Part shown: positions 4,476 through 30,660 of the stretch, in pieces
Layout: each line of letters starts with the position of its first letter
Numbering within the stretch: the stretch's first letter is position 1
Source: Desulfobacterales bacterium
GTDB taxonomy: Bacteria; Desulfobacterota; Desulfobacteria; Desulfobacterales; UBA2156
DNA: 34,338 nucleotides
Assembly: GCA_027025555.1 (NCBI GenBank)
Contig: JALVQN010000122.1
Span: 1 to 34,338 of the forward strand
Reading direction: 5' to 3'
The notes under the pieces: model-generated
What the model was told of the DNA's origin: nothing
The model's database searches: none
What the model saw: only the letters and a program-made list of their open reading frames with translations
Translations under genes and position numbers: made by a program

Positions 4476-5708
4476 TCAAGAGCAAACCACCAGACCGGCA
4501 TTGGGAAGCACCGCCAGGGTCCCCTTGCGATTTTGAAGACACTTCAGCGCCTGTGCAAAGGAAACCTTCTCCACCCCTATCCGCCCACAGATGCTGTCAT
4601 CAAGTGCCGTCACCATGAGGATAGTGATGCGGGCGGTCTTTTTCATCATGGAAAGGGCCGTGCCGCCGTTTCCCTTGTACTGCCTCGAAAGCGCTTCAAA
4701 GGCCCGGGAAAAGCCTCCTGAAGAAAAATACGGCAAAAAGGCCCGGGAACCCACGCCGTCCGGACACCGGGCAAGGACCACCAGCGTTCCCCGGTCCTGG
4801 ACAAAACGGGAGGCATTTTCAATGCCCTTGTGACTCTGGATAAAATTGATATCCCGGGGATGCCCTCCGCATGAGGCCAGAACCCAAGGGTACCGCTTGC
4901 TGCAACGGACTTCACAATTACGGGCATGCGCGGCGCAGGCCTTTCGAAAATCGGCATGCCCCTTTCCCACAAGCAAGTCGCATACCTTTCCGTTGCGGTC
5001 CAGGATACCATGGACCGCCACATGGGCCTGGAAGAAGGTTTCGTATTCCTCCAGGTCTTCGGCCACGGGATTTCCCTCTAACCTTCCGGGCCGACAGCCA
5101 GGCGCCAATCGCTTCCGGGTTCGATCCAGGAAAAGGGCATGATTGTGATGGATGGCATCCCGGAAACCCAGTCCCGGAAAGATCAATTTCCGCCCGCCAC
5201 CGTAGCCTGCAAAATAATGATGCGACACCGCTCCGAAAGTTACCACAAAGGTGCATGCCAAAAGGTCTTTCCGGATCATCACGGGCGTTTTTCGCGAGGT
5301 TTCACCAAGGTATTGAAAGGCGGAGGGATCGGAAGCATCATGGTGCACGAACGAAAAACGGCCATAGACAGGACCATAGGCGTCCAGGCATTCCTGCTCA
5401 GTCTGTCGGACGTGGGCGCCGTAGGCAATAAAAAACCGAATCCGATCGTCATGGACGCCCTGCGCCTTGAAAGCCTTCAACAGCGCGGGAAGATAGGACG
5501 GATACCCGCACAACCGGGTCTTATCGGCCACAACGACGCCCACCCGATTCAAATCCGGCTGCATACGGTCCAAAACCCGTCTCACTTGCAAGAAAAAACC
5601 TTCCGGGTCGCATTGAGGCTCAGGGTCTTCAATGTCCCATAGATCAAACGCTCCGGGAATGTCCCAGTCAAGGGTTTCCTTGCCGTATTTCAGCTTCAGC
5701 CTGTCCAT
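4476..5708 (-). CDS. LarA-like nickel-pincer racemase/epimerase (DUF2088)
   Basis: A 410-residue member of the lactate racemase LarA family, which uses the covalently bound nickel-pincer nucleotide to racemise or epimerise 2-hydroxyacids. The visible signature is AYGAHVRQT with His99, then [16 protein letters not shown] with His164 and Lys174, then HHNH with His190. These correspond by spacing to His108, His174, Lys184 and His200 of the Lactobacillus plantarum enzyme. [12 protein letters not shown] further on is also typical. Larger family surveys show many substrates besides lactate, so lactate itself is not assured. No larB, larC or larE cofactor genes are in the window. It is divergent from the GcvT-SHMT gene and apparently heads a transcript with icd. 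The start at 5708 has only a weak ribosome-binding site. Confidence 0.85.
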
Positions 5709-5893: not shown

Positions 5894-8542
5894 ATGGAAA
5901 CGCTAAAAAAGACCCCGCTGTACGGGCGCCATGCCTCCCTGGGGGCCACCCTGGTCCCGTTTGCCGGGTGGCACATGCCGCTGCATTACCGGCCGGGTAT
6001 TGTGCAGGAGCACCTGGCCACCCGAAGACACGCCGGCCTTTTCGATGTGTCCCACATGGGCCGGTTCACGGTCTCCGGAAAGGAGGCCCTGGCCTTTCTC
6101 CAGCACGTGCTCACCAACAATGCCGCCGCCCTCGACGTGGAGGAAAGCCAGTACACCCTCATCAGCGATCCTTACGGACATGCCATCGACGATGCCTACC
6201 TTTACCGCTTTGAAAAAGACCGGTACCTTCTGGTGGTCAACGCCGCCAACACCCAAAGGGACCGGGCCCACTTTCAAGAGGTCCTGAGCGCCTTTGAGGA
6301 CGTCTCCCTCCAAGACCACACCGAATCCCTTTCCATGCTCAGCCTCCAGGGCCCCCGGTCCAAGACCGTCTTGGCCGACCTTCTGGAGGGGGGACGGTTG
6401 CCCGAACCCCTCAGAAACGCCCTTTCCACGGCGGTCATCGCCGGTGCCCCCGTCCAAATCTCAAGGACGGGATATACGGGCGAACCCTTGTGCTTCGAAC
6501 TCTTCATGCCCCGGCAAGCCGCGCAGCAGGTATGGGATGGGATCCTTTCCAAGGGCGCCTTTCCCGTGGGCTTGGGCGCCCGCGACACCCTGCGCTTGGA
6601 AGCCGGGTTGCCCCTTTTCGGGCACGAGTTCGGCACGGATCCCGAAGGAAACGCCATCCCCGTCTTCGCCTGCCCCCTTGCCCGGTTTGCCGTCAGCTTC
6701 TCGCCTCTCAAAGGAGACTTTATCGGCCGGGCCGCCCTGGAAAAACAGTTTGACGCCTTCAAGCGGATCACCTTCAATGATTTTTCCGGCACAAAGCATC
6801 TCCCGAGAAGGATTCACCCCATGGCACTCATGGAAAAGGGCGTGCCCAGACAGGGTTTTCCGGTCTTTAAAAAAGGGGGCCTTGTAGGGTACGTGACCAG
6901 CGGCACCATGGTGCCCTATCATCTCTTTTCAAAAGAGGGCATCGACGGGCAGCCCACGGGTCAGACGGCCTTGCGGGGCATCTGCCTGGCCCTTGTCAAC
7001 AGCGACTGCCGCCAAGGCGATATCCTTGAAATGGACATCCGAGGCAGACGGGCCAAAGGGATCCTCGTGCCTTACCACCTGCGCAGCGAAGCCCCGCCCT
7101 TTGCCCGGCCCGTCCCGTGGAACCGGATCCACCAGGACAAAAAGCCTCCGCCCGAAGCGCCCTCCATCGAAAAGGCGCTGGCCCTCACCCAACAGGCCCT
7201 TTACAACACCCGGTGGCGCAGGCAGGCGTGTATCAACCTGATTCCTTCGGAGCAGACCCCCTCTTCCCTGGTGAAATACCTTTCCATGGCCGATCCCTCC
7301 GGCAGGTACGCCGAGCATAAGGCGCTGCCGGCCTTTTCCGAAACCGAAGTATTTTACTACCAGGGGACCGATTTCATCGCCCAGGTGGAATCTTTGCTCA
7401 AAGAAGAACTTTGCGCCTACCTGGGATGCCGGGAAGTGGAGCCCCGTGTCATTTCCGGGCAGATGGCCAACACCGCCGTCTTCAGCGCCATGGTGGACCA
7501 CCTCAACTGCGCCGATCGAAAGCACGAACAGCGTCGGATGCGGAAGGTCCTCCACCACCACATCATCAAGGGGGGCCATCTCAGCGCCCAGCCCATGGGG
7601 GCGCTGCGGGATTTCGTCATGCGGGATCCCAGGACGGAAAAGCCCGCCGTGGTCCCTTTCCCGGTGATGCCCCACGATCCCTTCAGGATCGACGTGGAGG
7701 CCTGCCGGCAAGTCCTCGAAGAACACCGCCCGGAACTCATCGTCTTCGGAAAAAGCATGACCCTCTACCGGGAACCGGTGGCTGCCATCCGGGAGATGGT
7801 GAAGGCCATGGGCCTGGACTGCACGATCCTGTACGACATGGCCCATGTCCTGGGACTGGTGGGCCCCCATTTCCAGGAACCCTTCAAGGAAGGGGCGGAC
7901 ATCGTGACCGGATCGACCCACAAGACCTTTTTCGGGACCCAGAGGGGCCTCATCGCCTGCGATTGGGCCCGGGAGGATCCCGGCTTTGCACTGTGGGAGG
8001 CCGTCGTGCGCCGCACCTTTCCCGGAAGCACCAGCAATCACCACCTGGGAACACTCCTGGGCCTCCTCATGGCCGCCTATGAAATGAACCATTTCAAAGA
8101 GCCCTACCAGAGGCAGGTGCTCGCGAACGCCAAGGCCTTTGCCCGGGCCCTTGCCGATTGCGGCCTGCATGTGGCGGGAGATCCCGACATTTCCCATACC
8201 GAAACCCACCAGGTGGTCCTTTACGTGGGATACGCCCAGGGGCCTGAAATCGCCCGGCGGCTGGAAGAAAGCAACATCATCGTCAACTATCAGGCCGCCC
8301 CCACGGATGAAGGCTTCACCGCCGCAGGCGCCCTGCGCATGGGGGTCCAGGAGATGACCCGTTTCGGCATGAAGGAAGCCCACTTTCAACAGGTGGCCCA
8401 GTTCCTTTCCGACGTTGTCAAGGGAAAGCCCTCGGTCAAGGAGGCGGTGGCGGCCTTCAGGAAAGACTTCCTTGAGATGGCCTATACTTTTCCTCCGGAG
8501 CGGTTCGATGGGCTTTTAACCCGGCTGTCTCGGTTGCTTTAG
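5894..8542 (+). CDS. GcvT-SHMT fusion: aminomethyltransferase plus serine hydroxymethyltransferase
   Basis: An 882-residue single frame joining two folate enzymes. Residues 1 to about 397 are glycine-cleavage T-protein: FDVSHMGRF (50-58), AIDDAYLYRF with the conserved Asp99/100, SRTGYTGEPLCFEL (190-203), GLGARDTLRLEAGL (227-239) and GYVTSGTM (332-339). The rest, about 411-882, is a PLP-dependent SHMT: INLIPSEQ with Glu453, RYAEHKA with Tyr472, KGGHLS with His562, DMAHVLGL with Asp648 and His651, and GSTHKTFFG with the Schiff-base Lys677. ALRMGVQEMTRFG carries the carboxylate-binding Arg815. Both halves therefore look active. T-protein yields 5,10-methylene-THF and ammonia; SHMT joins methylene-THF with glycine to give serine. 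No gcvH or gcvP is adjacent. The start has AAGGGG and AAGGAA just upstream. The SHMT half is divergent, so a related aldolase activity is possible. Confidence 0.93.
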   Translation: METLKKTPLYGRHASLGATLVPFAGWHMPLHYRPGIVQEHLATRRHAGLFDVSHMGRFTVSGKEALAFLQHVLTNNAAALDVEESQYTLISDPYGHAIDDAYLYRFEKDRYLLVVNAANTQRDRAHFQEVLSAFEDVSLQDHTESLSMLSLQGPRSKTVLADLLEGGRLPEPLRNALSTAVIAGAPVQISRTGYTGEPLCFELFMPRQAAQQVWDGILSKGAFPVGLGARDTLRLEAGLPLFGHEFGTDPEGNAIPVFACPLARFAVSFSPLKGDFIGRAALEKQFDAFKRITFNDFSGTKHLPRRIHPMALMEKGVPRQGFPVFKKGGLVGYVTSGTMVPYHLFSKEGIDGQPTGQTALRGICLALVNSDCRQGDILEMDIRGRRAKGILVPYHLRSEAPPFARPVPWNRIHQDKKPPPEAPSIEKALALTQQALYNTRWRRQACINLIPSEQTPSSLVKYLSMADPSGRYAEHKALPAFSETEVFYYQGTDFIAQVESLLKEELCAYLGCREVEPRVISGQMANTAVFSAMVDHLNCADRKHEQRRMRKVLHHHIIKGGHLSAQPMGALRDFVMRDPRTEKPAVVPFPVMPHDPFRIDVEACRQVLEEHRPELIVFGKSMTLYREPVAAIREMVKAMGLDCTILYDMAHVLGLVGPHFQEPFKEGADIVTGSTHKTFFGTQRGLIACDWAREDPGFALWEAVVRRTFPGSTSNHHLGTLLGLLMAAYEMNHFKEPYQRQVLANAKAFARALADCGLHVAGDPDISHTETHQVVLYVGYAQGPEIARRLEESNIIVNYQAAPTDEGFTAAGALRMGVQEMTRFGMKEAHFQQVAQFLSDVVKGKPSVKEAVAAFRKDFLEMAYTFPPERFDGLLTRLSRLL

Positions 8543-8563: not shown

Positions 8564-9595
8564 ATGGATGCACCCAAGAGATTCCAGCCCGGGGCCGCAG
8601 CCCTTTTCCTGGTCTTTTTCGTCTTTTGCGGCGCCGCCCTTTTTTTCATGGAAATTCACCGGTTTGCCCAAAGCCCGGCGGATCCGTCCGGCACGGTCAA
8701 ACCCTTCACCGTCTTTCCCGGCGAAACCTTCCGGGAGATCGCCCGGCGGCTTGATCAGGAAAACATCGTCCAAAGCGCCTGGAAGCTCCGCTGGTACGCC
8801 CGCTTGAAGGGCGATGAAAAGCGCATTCAGGCCGGGGAATACGCCCTTTCGGCCGCCCTCACCCCCGCCGCCATCCTGGAGTCCCTGGTCTCGGGGCGGG
8901 TCATACTGCACCGGGTCACCATCCCCGAAGGCTTCACCCTCTCCCGGATTGCGACCCTTCTGGCCCAAAAGGGCATCGTGGACAGGGATCGCTTCATTCA
9001 GGCCGCCACGGATCCGAACATCGCGAGGCGTTTGGGCGTCAACGCCCCCAGCCTCGAAGGATACCTCTTTCCGGAAACCTATTATTTCCCCCGGCCCGCT
9101 TCGCCGGAAACCGTGCTTTCTGCCATGGTGAAGGCCTTTTTCAGGGCCTTTAAACCGCAATGGAAAAGGGATGCGGCAAAAGCCGGGTTTTCCCTCCACC
9201 AGATCGTCATCCTGGCCTCCATGATCGAAAAAGAGACCGGCGCGGCCTTCGAGCGGCCCCTCATCGCCTCGGTCTTTTACAATCGGCTCAGGAAAAAGAT
9301 GCGCCTTCAAAGCGATCCCACCGTCATCTACGGCATGAAAAACTTTGACGGGAATCTCACGCGGAAAGACCTGGAGCGGCCCACTCCGTACAACACCTAT
9401 CAAATCTTCGGGTTGCCCCCCGGCCCCATCGCCAATCCGGGCGCCGGGGCCCTCCGTGCAGCCGTCTATCCCGCGAAAACCCGGTTTTTATACTTTGTTT
9501 CCAAAAACGACGGGACCCACTTTTTTTCCGAAAGCCTCCGGGAGCATCGGAGCGCCGTCTCCAAACACCAGAAAAAAAGGACATCCGCGCCATGA
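8564..9595 (+). CDS. mltG: Endolytic murein transglycosylase MltG
   Basis: A 343-residue inner-membrane lytic transglycosylase that cuts nascent peptidoglycan strands and releases 1,6-anhydro-MurNAc ends. Residues about 10-30 form the single membrane anchor. A LysM-like region follows (about 46-115: VFPGETFREIARRL, QAGEYALS), then the YceG catalytic domain with LEGYLFPETYYF (164-175) and ILASMIEKET, whose Glu222 matches catalytic Glu218 of E. coli. Further family motifs are SVFYNRL, LQSDPTVIYG and YNTY...GLPPGPI. It starts 21 bases after the fusion gene and overlaps nagZ by ATGA, so mltG and nagZ are translationally coupled. Confidence 0.95.
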   Translation: MDAPKRFQPGAAALFLVFFVFCGAALFFMEIHRFAQSPADPSGTVKPFTVFPGETFREIARRLDQENIVQSAWKLRWYARLKGDEKRIQAGEYALSAALTPAAILESLVSGRVILHRVTIPEGFTLSRIATLLAQKGIVDRDRFIQAATDPNIARRLGVNAPSLEGYLFPETYYFPRPASPETVLSAMVKAFFRAFKPQWKRDAAKAGFSLHQIVILASMIEKETGAAFERPLIASVFYNRLRKKMRLQSDPTVIYGMKNFDGNLTRKDLERPTPYNTYQIFGLPPGPIANPGAGALRAAVYPAKTRFLYFVSKNDGTHFFSESLREHRSAVSKHQKKRTSAP

Positions 9596-11644: not shown

Positions 11645-13507
11645 TCATTTCCGGTCCATGGGCCGGCCTTCTTCTGTCTCTCCAAGATCCACGGGTTCCA
11701 GGTGCACGGAAAACCGCTTCAAAAAAAGGCCGTGGGTCCTGCAAAAGGCCTTGACCGCGTCCATCCGGGACGGTTCGGCATCCATGAAAGAGACCAAAAG
11801 CCCGCCCACGGGATGCTTCTTGAGGAGGGTTTCCAGGTCCGAAAAGGATCCCAGGATGGGGTATCCGTTTAATTTCCGACCCGCCTTCAGGGCATCATCG
11901 TCGATGAACCCGATGGGCCTGACGTTCAAACTGCGGTTGTTGAGGATTTCACGCAGCAGGATCTCGCCGCCCCGGCCGGCCCCGTAAATGAAGACGGCAT
12001 CCCCCTTGAGCCCCTTGCGCTTCACGGTATCCCTGAAAAGACGAAAGGAGCCCCGGGTCCCCAAGAGCAGCCCGGTGGTCAAGAACCAATCGATGACGAA
12101 GATTCCCTTGGAAAAATCCTGGAACCGGTAAAGGAACGTGACCACGGAGACCGACAGCACGGTCCCCACGGCCGTGGCCTTGAGATAAACAAAGACATCG
12201 GTGGCGGTCATGTAGCGCCAAATCCCCCGATAGACGCCGGTGGCGAAAAAGGCCAGAAACTTGCAGGCGATGACCGCCGGCAGGGATCGGAGAAAGACCT
12301 TGAAGTAAAGGCCGAAGACTTCGGCATCGAACCGGAGCCGGTAGGAGCTGTAATAGGAAAACGCGATGAGTCCGAAATCGAGGATGACCAGAAGGATCTG
12401 GCGCTTGTAGGTGAGTTCCAGCAAAATGGGCGTGTATGCCCGGTTGCGAAGGAGCGAAAACTCCTTTTCGGGATAGACGCGGATCTGGGCGAGATAGACG
12501 CCCATGAGGAGCACGGACAGGGCCAACGGAAGGATCACGCCGGGGGAGGTGAGGGTGTCGCTTTTGTCCACAAAGACGGCGGAAATCCCGGATACCGCAC
12601 CGATCCCGAAGAGAAAGAGGACGGCCCCGCGTTCGGAAAGGCCCATGAGGACCAGTCGATGGGAGGTGTGGTCCTGGCCGCCCACGGAGGCCTTGCGGCC
12701 GCTCAAAATCCGGATCAGCGTCACCAACGTGGTGTCCAGGATCGGGACCATGAGGGTCATCACCGGCACCGCATAGACAGAGATCCGGTTGCCGGTGCCG
12801 TTTTGGGTATAGAGCATGGCCAGCATGGCAAGGGAAAATCCGACGACAAGGCTCCCGCTGTCGCCCATGAAGATGGAGGCGGGATTGAAATTGTAAACCA
12901 AAAAGGCGGCCAGGGATCCGGCCGAGATCAGGGCCATGAAAAAGAGGCCTTCGGACCGCTTGAAAAACAACACCGCCAGGGTCAGGGCGGCCACCAAACC
13001 CACGCCGGCACAGAGGCCGTCCATGTTGTCCAACAGGTTGAAGGCATTGGTAATCCCCACAATCCAGACGATGGTCACCATGGTGTCCAGGGTCAGAGAA
13101 ACGAACCAGTGGAGCCGAAAACCGATAAAAGCGATGAAGGAAGCCACCACGATTTGCCCCACCAGCTTGGTATGGGGCTTGATTCCCACGAAGTCATCCA
13201 CGAGGCCCAGCAGAAAGAGCGCGGTGATCCCCAGCCACACCGCCGCCTCCGGAGAAGCGGGGACCTTAACGACGGCGGAGCGGGAGAGATGGGGAATGAG
13301 GGTGGAAAAGTCACACAGGAAAAAAAGGGGCACCGCCATCCCCGCATAGATGGCGACGCCTCCGAGCAGGGCGGTGGGCTTCTTGTGCCACCGTTGGTCG
13401 GATGGCTGGGCCAGCCAGCCCTTGTCCCGGGCCGTTCGCCGGACCAGGGGCGTCAGGACAAGGCAGATGAAAAAAGAAACCCCGAAAATACCGTACGCCG
13501 TCATCAT
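11645..13507 (-). CDS. WecA/TagO-type phosphoglycosyltransferase fused to FlaA1-like Rossmann membrane domain
   Basis: A 620-residue integral membrane protein in two parts. Residues 1 to about 345 are a polyprenyl-phosphate HexNAc-1-phosphate transferase of the WecA/MraY superfamily with many membrane segments. They carry LGLVDDFVGI (Asp104/Asp105), NAFNLLDNMDGL (154-165), FMGDSGSL (213-220) and GGQDHTSHRL (277-285). Such enzymes start undecaprenyl-linked glycan assembly at the membrane. Residues about 365-620 are another membrane block followed by a Rossmann-like segment with IYGAGRGGEILL (507-518) and GFIDDD (533-538). They resemble the N-terminal half of FlaA1/WbpM/CapD dehydratases but lack their catalytic SDR domain. 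The fused half probably senses or holds a nucleotide sugar; this is inference. The start is one of two adjacent ATGs (13507 or 13504). It is followed by tsaD. Confidence 0.9.
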   Translation of the reverse strand: MMTAYGIFGVSFFICLVLTPLVRRTARDKGWLAQPSDQRWHKKPTALLGGVAIYAGMAVPLFFLCDFSTLIPHLSRSAVVKVPASPEAAVWLGITALFLLGLVDDFVGIKPHTKLVGQIVVASFIAFIGFRLHWFVSLTLDTMVTIVWIVGITNAFNLLDNMDGLCAGVGLVAALTLAVLFFKRSEGLFFMALISAGSLAAFLVYNFNPASIFMGDSGSLVVGFSLAMLAMLYTQNGTGNRISVYAVPVMTLMVPILDTTLVTLIRILSGRKASVGGQDHTSHRLVLMGLSERGAVLFLFGIGAVSGISAVFVDKSDTLTSPGVILPLALSVLLMGVYLAQIRVYPEKEFSLLRNRAYTPILLELTYKRQILLVILDFGLIAFSYYSSYRLRFDAEVFGLYFKVFLRSLPAVIACKFLAFFATGVYRGIWRYMTATDVFVYLKATAVGTVLSVSVVTFLYRFQDFSKGIFVIDWFLTTGLLLGTRGSFRLFRDTVKRKGLKGDAVFIYGAGRGGEILLREILNNRSLNVRPIGFIDDDALKAGRKLNGYPILGSFSDLETLLKKHPVGGLLVSFMDAEPSRMDAVKAFCRTHGLFLKRFSVHLEPVDLGETEEGRPMDRK

Positions 13508-19954: not shown

Positions 19955-20039
<85 letters not shown>

Positions 20040-20331: not shown

Positions 20332-21186
20332 CTAAGGGGATTGGCATTTGGAAACCAGTTCTCGAACGAAACCCACCACATCAGCCTGCAGTTCTTCATT
20401 GGGCCCTCCATATAGAAACTCCGCGACACGCCTCGGTCCCACACCGTTAGGGTCGGAAAAGTCTCCTTGCAGGATCCGGAGAGCGCGTTGCGTTTCCTGT
20501 TCTTCAAGAAGGGGCTTGAGATGGTCAAAGATATTGTCAACGCCTGCTCCATAATTTCGGATCACCCAGTAAAGGTCATATGCATCTTTATTTTCTCCTC
20601 TTTTCCCGAAGGCCAACGCCTTTAGGATTACAAACGCTCCCGGTCCGCATACCCATACATAACGCCTTGCTTTTTCCCCGGTAATCGTCATTCCTTCCAG
20701 TACAATTTTTTGCCTGTCCCTGAAAGCCAGATGAAGGCCCGGCGTTATCACGGCGGCGAAGTCTCTCTCAATATGCCGAAGACTACCGCCTTTATCCGAC
20801 TCAATACTTGGAGGTATGACAAAATCCACTGTGACCTTCAGGTCAGGGGACGGCTCAATCTTCCAGCGCTGAAATATGGGATTCCCCCTTTCACTGACAT
20901 CGGGTTCAAAACCCGCCCTGCGCAGTCTTAAAGTAAGTTCCTCATATCTACGGGCATCCAGCAAGTATAGGGAAAGCCCCAGATCAAGATCTGTGGTTCC
21001 CACATGAACCTCTTCACTCTTGGGAAGTGATTTGTCAGGAATCAAAAGGGTAGGCACAAGTCCACCAACAACAACAAATTCGTCAAGGAGGTCTCCAAGC
21101 TTTGTGGCAACATAAAGACAGGTCCGTCTTACAAGCTCTACCTGTTCTTTACGATATCCAGTGGCATAGGAAGGTTTTTCAGGCAT
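20332..21186 (-). CDS. AbiEii-like nucleotidyltransferase (putative toxin of a type IV TA pair)
   Basis: A 284-residue protein with a nucleotidyltransferase fold. GG at 41-42 and TTDLDLGLSL with Asp66 and Asp68 form the first metal site, and VTVDFVIPP gives the third acidic residue, Asp121. ILKALAFGKRGENKDAYDLY (187-206) matches the K...KxxDxYDL motif shared by AbiEii proteins (COG2253). In characterised AbiE systems the AbiEii enzyme is a nucleotidyltransferase toxin that arrests growth. The start at 21186 has GGAG six bases upstream and overlaps the regulator gene by eight bases, so the pair is translationally coupled with the antitoxin-like gene first. The enzyme substrate is unknown. Domain call fairly sure; toxin role inferred from pairing. 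Confidence 0.75.
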   Translation of the reverse strand: MPEKPSYATGYRKEQVELVRRTCLYVATKLGDLLDEFVVVGGLVPTLLIPDKSLPKSEEVHVGTTDLDLGLSLYLLDARRYEELTLRLRRAGFEPDVSERGNPIFQRWKIEPSPDLKVTVDFVIPPSIESDKGGSLRHIERDFAAVITPGLHLAFRDRQKIVLEGMTITGEKARRYVWVCGPGAFVILKALAFGKRGENKDAYDLYWVIRNYGAGVDNIFDHLKPLLEEQETQRALRILQGDFSDPNGVGPRRVAEFLYGGPNEELQADVVGFVRELVSKCQSP

Positions 21187-22252
21187 CTTTTCTCCAGTTC
21201 AAATATTCCTGGCGCAACCTGGATGCGGCTTCCTCGGATCTTTCAGGATGTGCTTTGAGATCCAGATAGAGCTGGACCGGGTGGACACATGCAATTTTAT
21301 CACGTTCGGCAGCGCCATGAAATACCCCTTCATCATCGGGAACAACCAGCCAGGTATTGGCACCCACTTCATCTTTGCGGAAATGAAGAGCAGCGAGCAT
21401 TTTTTCCGTTGGCAACTCTTTTAGATAGAAGGTCACAATTCGAAAGACAGCAAACTGGGTGTAGAGCCATGCCCCTGCAAGCCCGGTAAAGGCATGCTCT
21501 ATCCCGTTTTGGCTAAGGACAGGGGCTATCTTCTCAAGTAATTCATGGCCACTGCGGGCTGCAATGTGGCCTTTGATAAGATGATGTTTGGTAAAATCAT
21601 AGGCCTCATGCCACGCATCGAGCAATTGGTGCGGATCATAAGGCTTCAGACGGCCCTGATCATCTCTGACGATCAACCTGGTCTCTTCAAGCCTACGAAT
21701 GATACGGCTGGTATAACCCTCGTCAAGACCGGTACGCCGAGACAATTCCCGTTGAGTGAAGCCCCTGTATGGCTCGATGAGAAACCGGCGCGCAATGCGA
21801 GAGCTTTTCGGGGCGAATATGTTTGGGGGCCTGCCGGGTTTTTTAAAACGATTCGGTCGGCCCTCGACATGGATGAGGAGGCCGGGCCCTTTGATGTGGG
21901 CATTTCCGGAGAGATCCACCCATGCAATGCCATGTTCGTCGCAAAACCGGCGACCCGTCTCGCCCATGAAGGGAACGACCAAAAGGGGGATGCCATCGTC
22001 CCCCAAATCGCTTTTGATCCCTTCAAGGCGGTCAGCCGCCAGATTTAGTAACGCTCGATTACTCGCACTCCTGAATTCAACAAAAAATTTGTATTTACCT
22101 GCATCTATTACAAAATCAGGTCCGCGGTCTTTTCGGCGTTCCAGAATCCTTACCTCACTTTCAGGCATTTCCAGGAACGCGGCAAGTCTTCTCGGCAACT
22201 CGTTAATCATTTGTTTTTCGAATAAATACTTCATATTTGACAAAATAGCCAT
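21179..22252 (-). CDS. AbiEi-like winged-helix regulator (putative antitoxin)
   Basis: A 357-residue protein in three parts. The N-terminal part (about 1-130) looks like a nuclease-fold module, with PDFVID at 45-50 and FFVEFRS, and contains the WVDLSGNAHI motif (111-120) often seen in this family. A winged helix-turn-helix follows (about 152-205: FTQRELSRRTGLDEGYTSRI). A C-terminal domain (about 230-357) resembles that of AbiEi proteins, with FTGLAGAWLYTQF. AbiEi antitoxins bind inverted repeats in their own promoters; here a long inverted repeat covers the start codon. ATG 22252 is assumed; ATG 22234 (seven codons in) is the alternative. Neither has a visible ribosome-binding site. It precedes and overlaps the nucleotidyltransferase. 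Confidence 0.72.
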   Translation of the reverse strand: MAILSNMKYLFEKQMINELPRRLAAFLEMPESEVRILERRKDRGPDFVIDAGKYKFFVEFRSASNRALLNLAADRLEGIKSDLGDDGIPLLVVPFMGETGRRFCDEHGIAWVDLSGNAHIKGPGLLIHVEGRPNRFKKPGRPPNIFAPKSSRIARRFLIEPYRGFTQRELSRRTGLDEGYTSRIIRRLEETRLIVRDDQGRLKPYDPHQLLDAWHEAYDFTKHHLIKGHIAARSGHELLEKIAPVLSQNGIEHAFTGLAGAWLYTQFAVFRIVTFYLKELPTEKMLAALHFRKDEVGANTWLVVPDDEGVFHGAAERDKIACVHPVQLYLDLKAHPERSEEAASRLRQEYLNWRKDA

Positions 22253-29762: not shown

Positions 29763-29835
29763 CGGCCGGCAGGCCTTCCGCTGTTGAGCCTCGACCCGGA
29801 TCGTGCTACAAGCAATCAGGGGCGAGGTCCAAGCC

Positions 29836-30660
29836 ATGAAACACATGGATCCCAAATCGGCAAAGGCTTTCTTGAGGAGTCGGCCTGCAGGTGCCTGCAA
29901 CCTGGTCGATGTCCGGGAGCCCTGGGAGTACGAGGAGTCCCACCTCCCCGGCGCCACATTGATCCCCCTGGCAACCCTGGTGGAGTGCCTGGATACCATT
30001 TCACGCAAAAAACCGACCCTGGTCTATTGTCGATCAGGCAAGCGGAGCGCAGCCGCCGCCTCCCTTTTAACGGGCCAGGGATTTGACGAGGTCTACAACC
30101 TCACAGGCGGCATGCTGGCATGGAAAGGGGAAACGGCCGTGGGGCCCCGGGAAGCCGGTTTGTACCATTTCACGGGAAAGGAAACGCCCCTTGAAATCCT
30201 CAAGGTGGCCCATGCCATGGAGGCCCATCTCGGGGCCTTTTACGCAAGCCTGGCGGAATCGAGTAAAGACGCCGCACTGAAGAAAACATTTTCCCAACTG
30301 GCCGCTTTCGAAGCGGCCCATCGGCGCATCCTGGTGAAGATCGCCGAAGAACTGGGCCATCCCGGAGACATCCTGAAAGTCCTCGATACCTCAAGACAGG
30401 ACGCTTCTGCCGGAGAAGGCGGATGGGCGCCGGCGGAGCTTTTGAAGAAACGGCGTGCCTTTCTGGGGACCCCGCAAGAAGTCCTGGAGGCGGCCATGAT
30501 GTTCGAAACCCAGGCCCTGGACCTCTATCTCCGCAGCCAAAAAGGCATTGAAAATCCCCGGGGCCGCACCCTCCTGGGCAGGCTGGCAGACCAGGAAAAG
30601 GGCCATCTGGACACTCTGGCCAGGCTCATGGACAAAAAACGGCTTCCGGATATGCCATGA
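29836..30660 (+). CDS. Rhodanese-rubrerythrin (ferritin-like di-iron) fusion protein
   Basis: A 274-residue cytoplasmic fusion. Residues about 4-105 are a rhodanese domain: NLVDVREPWEYEESHLPGA, then VYCRSGKRSAAAA with active-site Cys65. Residues about 118-265 are a ferritin-like four-helix domain with a full di-iron set: Glu129, Glu159-x-x-His162 (FEAAH), Glu224 and Glu254-x-x-His257 (QEKGH). No rubredoxin-type Cys4 centre is present. The rhodanese part could pass sulfane sulfur while the di-iron part reduces peroxide or relays electrons; the combined role in oxidative or sulfur stress is inference. ATG 29836 with GAGG upstream is preferred over GTG 29803. The next gene overlaps by ATGA. Confidence 0.88.
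   Translation: MKHMDPKSAKAFLRSRPAGACNLVDVREPWEYEESHLPGATLIPLATLVECLDTISRKKPTLVYCRSGKRSAAAASLLTGQGFDEVYNLTGGMLAWKGETAVGPREAGLYHFTGKETPLEILKVAHAMEAHLGAFYASLAESSKDAALKKTFSQLAAFEAAHRRILVKIAEELGHPGDILKVLDTSRQDASAGEGGWAPAELLKKRRAFLGTPQEVLEAAMMFETQALDLYLRSQKGIENPRGRTLLGRLADQEKGHLDTLARLMDKKRLPDMP

Follow-up and report, generated by a model that had tools for sequence, protein, structure and literature searches.

A single open reading frame joins a T-protein and an SHMT

The window (the whole stretch of DNA analysed, 34,338 nucleotides) carries a fused gcvT-SHMT gene at 5894..8542 on the + strand. The gene starts with ATG, encodes one chain of 882 amino acids, and was recognised by Pfam and NCBIfam matches and by its homologues. 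Translation of the window ORFs revealed no internal stop within the 882 codons, and since the stop-to-stop frame (894 amino acids) added just 12 codons upstream of the ATG, this start is nearly forced. In the encoded protein, Pfam matched GCV_T (PF01571) at residues 9-249 (E 9.6e-75; 251.6 bits against a cut-off of 25.6) and SHMT (PF00464) at residues 436-838 (E 3.4e-32; 112 bits against a cut-off of 27). GCV_T_C fell slightly below the Pfam cut-off in the window's member, and GCV_T, GCV_T_C, and SHMT were each matched at E <= 0.001 by 47/47 aligned fusion homologues. A preliminary description of this DNA had reported complete GcvT and SHMT domains within one frame, which the Pfam matches and the uninterrupted frame bore out. 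Neither a stop nor a frameshift, which it had named as counter-evidence, lay between the halves. The chain was open in 58 full-length homologues, among them one from the completely sequenced Formimonas warabiya (L083) and one from a 1.7-Mb contig (L045), and an assembly or frameshift artefact was therefore ruled out. Separately, a fusion from the same genus (L005; G002:C157:13518-16163) contained one in-frame TAG near its N-terminus, and its open frame begins at residue 28.

The gene mltG, encoding an endolytic transglycosylase (TIGR00247 above cut-off), lies 21 bp downstream of the fusion at 8564..9595 (+), and directly follows it in the window and in three relatives of the same family. It is probably co-transcribed with the fusion, and its function is unrelated. 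The Rfam families found in the window comprised one tRNA only, with no glycine riboswitch or other family.

Conserved active-site residues in both halves

The GcvT half, defined by the Pfam GCV_T match and by structural similarity to the Bacillus subtilis T-protein (1yx2), covers residues 1-404 (5894..7105, +), and the fusion passed the NCBIfam gcvT equivalog TIGR00528 with 265 versus 236 bits. Within the pair Asp99-Asp100 (6188..6193, +), Asp100 aligned with Asp97 of the E. coli T-protein, the residue mutated in structure 3a8k according to its PDB title. Asp99, Asp100, Asn116, Tyr194, and Arg230 were invariant in the 58 full-length sequences; they include all of the key GcvT residues named in the preliminary description (Asp99/100, Tyr194, and Arg230). 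This conservation supports a predicted T-protein active site that is intact.

The SHMT half covers residues 424-882 (7163..8539, +), as judged by Pfam SHMT and a structural match to 4bhd. Since it scored 238 bits against a cut-off of 335 with the NCBIfam SHMT subfamily model NF000586, it is a divergent SHMT-family domain, as the preliminary description had noted, and not a standard GlyA. The Bacillus SHMT residues Tyr51/Glu53/Tyr61, His122, Ser172, Asp197, His200, Arg357, and the PLP lysine all had their equivalents in the fusion, namely Tyr472, Glu474, Tyr489, His562, Ser621, Asp648, His651, Arg815, and Lys677, and these, together with His676, were invariant in the 58 full-length sequences. 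By alignment, Tyr472-Ala-Glu474 (7307..7315, +) contains the counterparts of Tyr51 and of the catalytic Glu53, and His676-Lys677 (7919..7924, +) forms part of the PLP-binding lysine motif (STHKT). The key SHMT residues listed previously were thus all present and invariant, and no loss of key residues was seen among the 58 homologues, but one assignment was wrong: Glu453 belongs to the 'LIASEN' motif, and alignment with solved SHMTs placed the catalytic Glu at Glu474.

The second Asn of the SHMT 'NKN' motif was replaced by Gln800 (8291..8293, +) in every fusion when all homologues were aligned. The position corresponds to Bacillus Asn341 and E. coli Asn347; in SHMTs this Asn contacts the pterin, and structure 2vmn is of a mutant at Asn341. 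Unfused SHMT cousins within the same order kept the Asn, in contrast to the fusions. Three inserts near active-site motifs were confined to the fused half, being found neither in the compared solved SHMTs nor in the unfused cousins. Apart from Gln800, the alignments support an intact predicted active site in the SHMT half.

When solved relatives of the SHMT half were ranked by score, Methanocaldococcus SHMT (180 bits) preceded the L-threonine transaldolase ObaG (106 bits) and bacterial SHMTs (at most 85 bits), so that an L-threonine transaldolase was not the nearest kin. The fluorothreonine transaldolase model gave 125 bits against the fused protein. In a small-set tree, the fused halves adjoined the unfused SHMTs of genomes G003, G005, G012, and G033 with full support, and stood apart from canonical GlyA. 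In G003 and G005, the gene next to the unfused cousin is of SerB type. At two loci (L135 3683-6286 and L136 4958-7859), unfused cousins keeping the pterin Asn had as neighbour a SerB-type gene that also encodes ACT domains.

Predicted structure of the fusion

An AlphaFold2 model based on the homologue alignment had a pLDDT of 89 and a pTM of 0.87; confidence was intermediate in its short linker. This linker, residues 405-423 (7106..7162, +), was variable in sequence by column counts and had a pLDDT of about 72-88. Model residues 3-404 matched T-proteins (1yx2, Z 47.3, rmsd 1.9, 355 aligned), and residues 424-880 matched Methanocaldococcus SHMT (4bhd, Z 41.1, rmsd 2.5, 397 aligned); the SHMT half matched the L-threonine transaldolase 7k34 with Z 40.4. 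No solved chain with both halves was among the structural matches listed. One homologue (L127 5412-8315, +) is 967 amino acids long with its matched halves about 240 bases apart, and its linker seems much longer than usual.

Distribution of the fusion and its gene neighbourhoods

A scan of named genomes yielded the 58 full-length homologues, with 53-76% identity to the window protein. Their carriers included many Desulfobacterota and Deltaproteobacteria, Planctomycetota, 'Abyssobacteria', Nitrospiria, Clostridia (Oscillospiraceae among them), Formimonas warabiya, and a bacterium labelled Calditrichales. Genomes encoding GcvT and then SHMT in one chain, a listing proposed in the preliminary description, made up 20 of the 58 examined from the same order and extended to several other phyla; pieces at contig ends were found in 4 more of the same-order genomes, giving 24 fusion-bearing relatives. 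With the phylum sampled evenly, the fusion was present in 30/296 genomes. In a quick tree, the fusions fell into two branches, one of Clostridia, Calditrichales, and Nitrospiria and the other of Desulfobacterota and Planctomycetota, and labels were mixed between taxa, which may reflect transfer, binning, or taxonomy. The GcvT-SHMT fusion is real, recurrent, and widely kept among anaerobic bacteria.

The fusion was located within a glycine-cleavage (gcv) cluster at 39/74 loci. Of the 38 loci flanked by 4 kb or more on each side, 24 had gcvH or gcvP in the flank and 14 had no gcv gene nearby. The frequent order at gcv-cluster loci was fusion-gcvH-gcvPA-gcvPB, with gcvH on the same strand in 25, and these loci also carried lpd, lipB, lipA, and an Lrp-type regulator gene. 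Downstream of the fusion, a SerK-like gene was present at 7 loci (SerK model score 61 bits, below cut-off) and a SerB gene at 5. G003, of the same family as the host, has the order fusion-gcvH-gcvPA-gcvPB-lipB-lipA-(one gene)-mltG; in the window and three relatives the fusion stands directly before mltG, an arrangement that would arise if the gcv block had been relocated.

GDC-P was found in 24/24 fusion-bearing relatives versus 15/34 of those lacking the fusion (Fisher p 2e-6, with kinship ignored). The preliminary description had raised the question of whether such genomes also keep separate genes for the two activities. Of the 24 fusion-bearing relatives, 16 had no normal-sized gcvT apart from the fusion, and all 24 kept a separate SHMT, indicating that the fused SHMT is an additional, dedicated copy. 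For G046, it had been suggested that the fusion was the only SHMT of the cell; this was ruled out by a canonical glyA fragment at a contig end.

Glycine cleavage and one-carbon genes of the host

The host genome carries gcvH-gcvPA-gcvPB on contig C29, a contig other than that of the fusion, and no gcvT was found beside these genes. The gcvT model matched only the fusion above its cut-off across the host genome; an 815-amino-acid protein with a GcvT-like half scored below it. Given a gcvH-gcvPA-gcvPB set lacking gcvT and no other match above cut-off, the fusion is likely the host's only T-protein. Together with the placement of the fusion in gcv clusters elsewhere, this supports assigning it to glycine cleavage, in line with the preliminary description.

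The host also encodes formyl-THF ligase and acetyl-CoA synthase, as Wood-Ljungdahl anaerobes do. Formyl-THF ligase is THF-specific. In profile searches of the host genome, SerA was found, nothing passed the SerB cut-off, and an SDH_alpha serine deaminase was absent. Together with the two one-carbon genes, this pattern leans slightly toward serine synthesis from glycine; the role of SerB could be filled by other phosphatases.

A proposed link between glycine cleavage and serine

We consider it probable, with considerable room for doubt, that the fusion is the organism's T-protein joined to a dedicated SHMT, and that through methylene-THF it links glycine cleavage with the formation or breakdown of serine. 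This proposal follows from the conserved catalytic residues, the company of gcv genes, and the missing gcvT. The aminomethyl group would reach the GcvT half on lipoyl-GcvH, and its transfer to tetrahydrofolate would yield 5,10-methylene-THF and ammonia, and the SHMT half would combine methylene-THF with a further glycine to form serine. All of these steps would be reversible, and serine carbon could be fed the opposite way by the same enzyme. We infer that both halves are active and have THF as a common carrier; coupling, perhaps even channelling, of the one-carbon unit would be the purpose of the fusion. As to direction, we lean slightly toward synthesis of glycine and serine, in the setting of a Wood-Ljungdahl anaerobe. 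Several observations weigh against the proposal. A separate SHMT is always kept, and the fused SHMT is therefore not needed as such; in addition, the SHMT half scores below the NCBIfam cut-off, Gln800 takes the place of Asn, 14/38 loci are without gcv genes, and the host neighbour is mltG.

The recurrence of the fusion, often beside other glycine-cleavage genes, suggests that the one-carbon unit could move directly from glycine to serine or back. A specific form of channelling, in which methylene-THF derived from one glycine is handed from the GcvT half to the SHMT half and added to a second glycine, or in reverse, and the changed pterin site of a methanogen-type SHMT is adapted to receive the cofactor from the joined T-protein instead of from solution, is offered tentatively and is rather doubtful. 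Both halves might instead be active with no channelling, the fusion then serving only to keep T-protein and an extra SHMT co-expressed in equal amounts; we rate this a little short of an even chance, and as a sub-case of the coupling proposal its probability overlaps with that given above. The variable linker sequence, the longer linker of the 967-amino-acid member, and a free methylene-THF pool that is probably common to the Wood-Ljungdahl enzymes would all be consistent with such an arrangement, but the layout is kept across several phyla at nearly constant length, and persists even when the gene stands away from its former gcv neighbours, as it does in the window. The domain arrangement was also predicted confidently (pTM 0.87), though this is uninformative on a tunnel.

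Other readings concern the SHMT half itself. If it were a threonine/allo-threonine aldolase or L-threonine transaldolase and not a folate-dependent SHMT, glycine would be supplied to or taken from the cleavage system, and the second product would be acetaldehyde or some other aldehyde. The preliminary description had allowed for a different aldol acceptor, a doubt that keeps some weight, but we regard this reading as unlikely. Although 7k34 is the next solved relative after Methanocaldococcus SHMT (Z 40.4) and the fluorothreonine transaldolase model reaches 125 bits, the closest kin are SHMTs and not transaldolases; and although all homologues have Gln800 for the Asn341 equivalent and fusion-specific inserts adjoin the active-site motifs, the folate-step set of Tyr472, Glu474, and Tyr489 is invariant. 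Moreover, the SerK-like and SerB neighbours suggest serine, and in both G003 and G005 the unfused cousin that has Asn is neighbour to a gene of SerB type. Far less probable still is an SHMT half devoid of SHMT turnover that senses glycine/serine or PLP and regulates the T-protein half: the constant presence of a separate SHMT and the divergence of the fused half would suit a sensor, but PLP and catalytic residues invariant over 58 homologues would be needless for a pure one.

Comparison with known systems

The SHMT of Methanocaldococcus jannaschii works with tetrahydromethanopterin. It is the closest solved relative of the fused half (4bhd, 4uqv; 33-34% identity over about 400 residues) and has its catalytic residues in common with it; in contrast to the fusion, it is stand-alone, keeps the pterin Asn where the fusion has Gln800, and lacks the three inserts. 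The GcvT half resembles solved T-proteins (1yx2, 1wos, 3a8i) over the full-length fold (Z 47, 355 aligned) and in its catalytic Asp, and many carriers have gcvH and gcvP alongside the fusion gene, whereas the usual T-protein is a separate protein of about 360 residues that bears no C-terminal SHMT. ObaG (7k34; PMC5490192) shares the SHMT fold with a comparable structural match (Z 40.4), yet it is a stand-alone enzyme of secondary metabolism that uses L-threonine, and its sequence score is below that of the methanogen SHMT. In dimethylglycine oxidase/dehydrogenase and sarcosine oxidase alpha (1pj5, 5l46, 2gag), a GcvT-type domain is likewise fused and passes a one-carbon unit to THF within one protein, but the partner is a flavin amine oxidoreductase on the N-terminal side, with no SHMT. 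The reductive glycine pathway of Desulfovibrio desulfuricans also combines the glycine cleavage system with SHMT in an anaerobic sulphate reducer, and channelling was offered as one possible explanation of the labelling data; there, however, GCS_T and SHMT are given as separate enzymes (PMC7547702), as are GcvT and GlyA in the Dehalobacteriia genome paper. A literature search without subscription papers found no publication on a GcvT-SHMT fusion and no characterised enzyme of this layout, as the preliminary description had stated. Both families and GcvT fusions with other enzymes are known; the GcvT-SHMT chain is unreported in the literature searched.

Glycine cleavage and SHMT together interconvert two glycines and serine, and form the core of the reductive glycine route engineered for formate growth. 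A natural fusion maintained in several phyla of anaerobes offers a direct way to test whether coupling both steps brings any gain, and is a possible part for synthetic one-carbon assimilation. It also corrects the view of organisms that would otherwise seem to be without gcvT.

Other features of the window

Upstream of the fusion, 4476-5708 (-) encodes a lactate-racemase-type (LarA) protein that scored well under every curated LarA family cut-off. At 11645-13507 (-), a protein of 620 amino acids combines a WecA/MraY-type glycosyl transferase 4 domain with a CoA_binding_3 domain (Pfam), the usual setting of the latter being exopolysaccharide sugar transferases. An AbiEi-type antitoxin-like gene followed by a 284-amino-acid gene without a Pfam match (20332-22252, -) adjoins tRNA-Met (19955-20031), and is possibly a type IV toxin-antitoxin pair. 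Finally, rhodanese and rubrerythrin domains are joined in a single protein at 29803-30660 (+).
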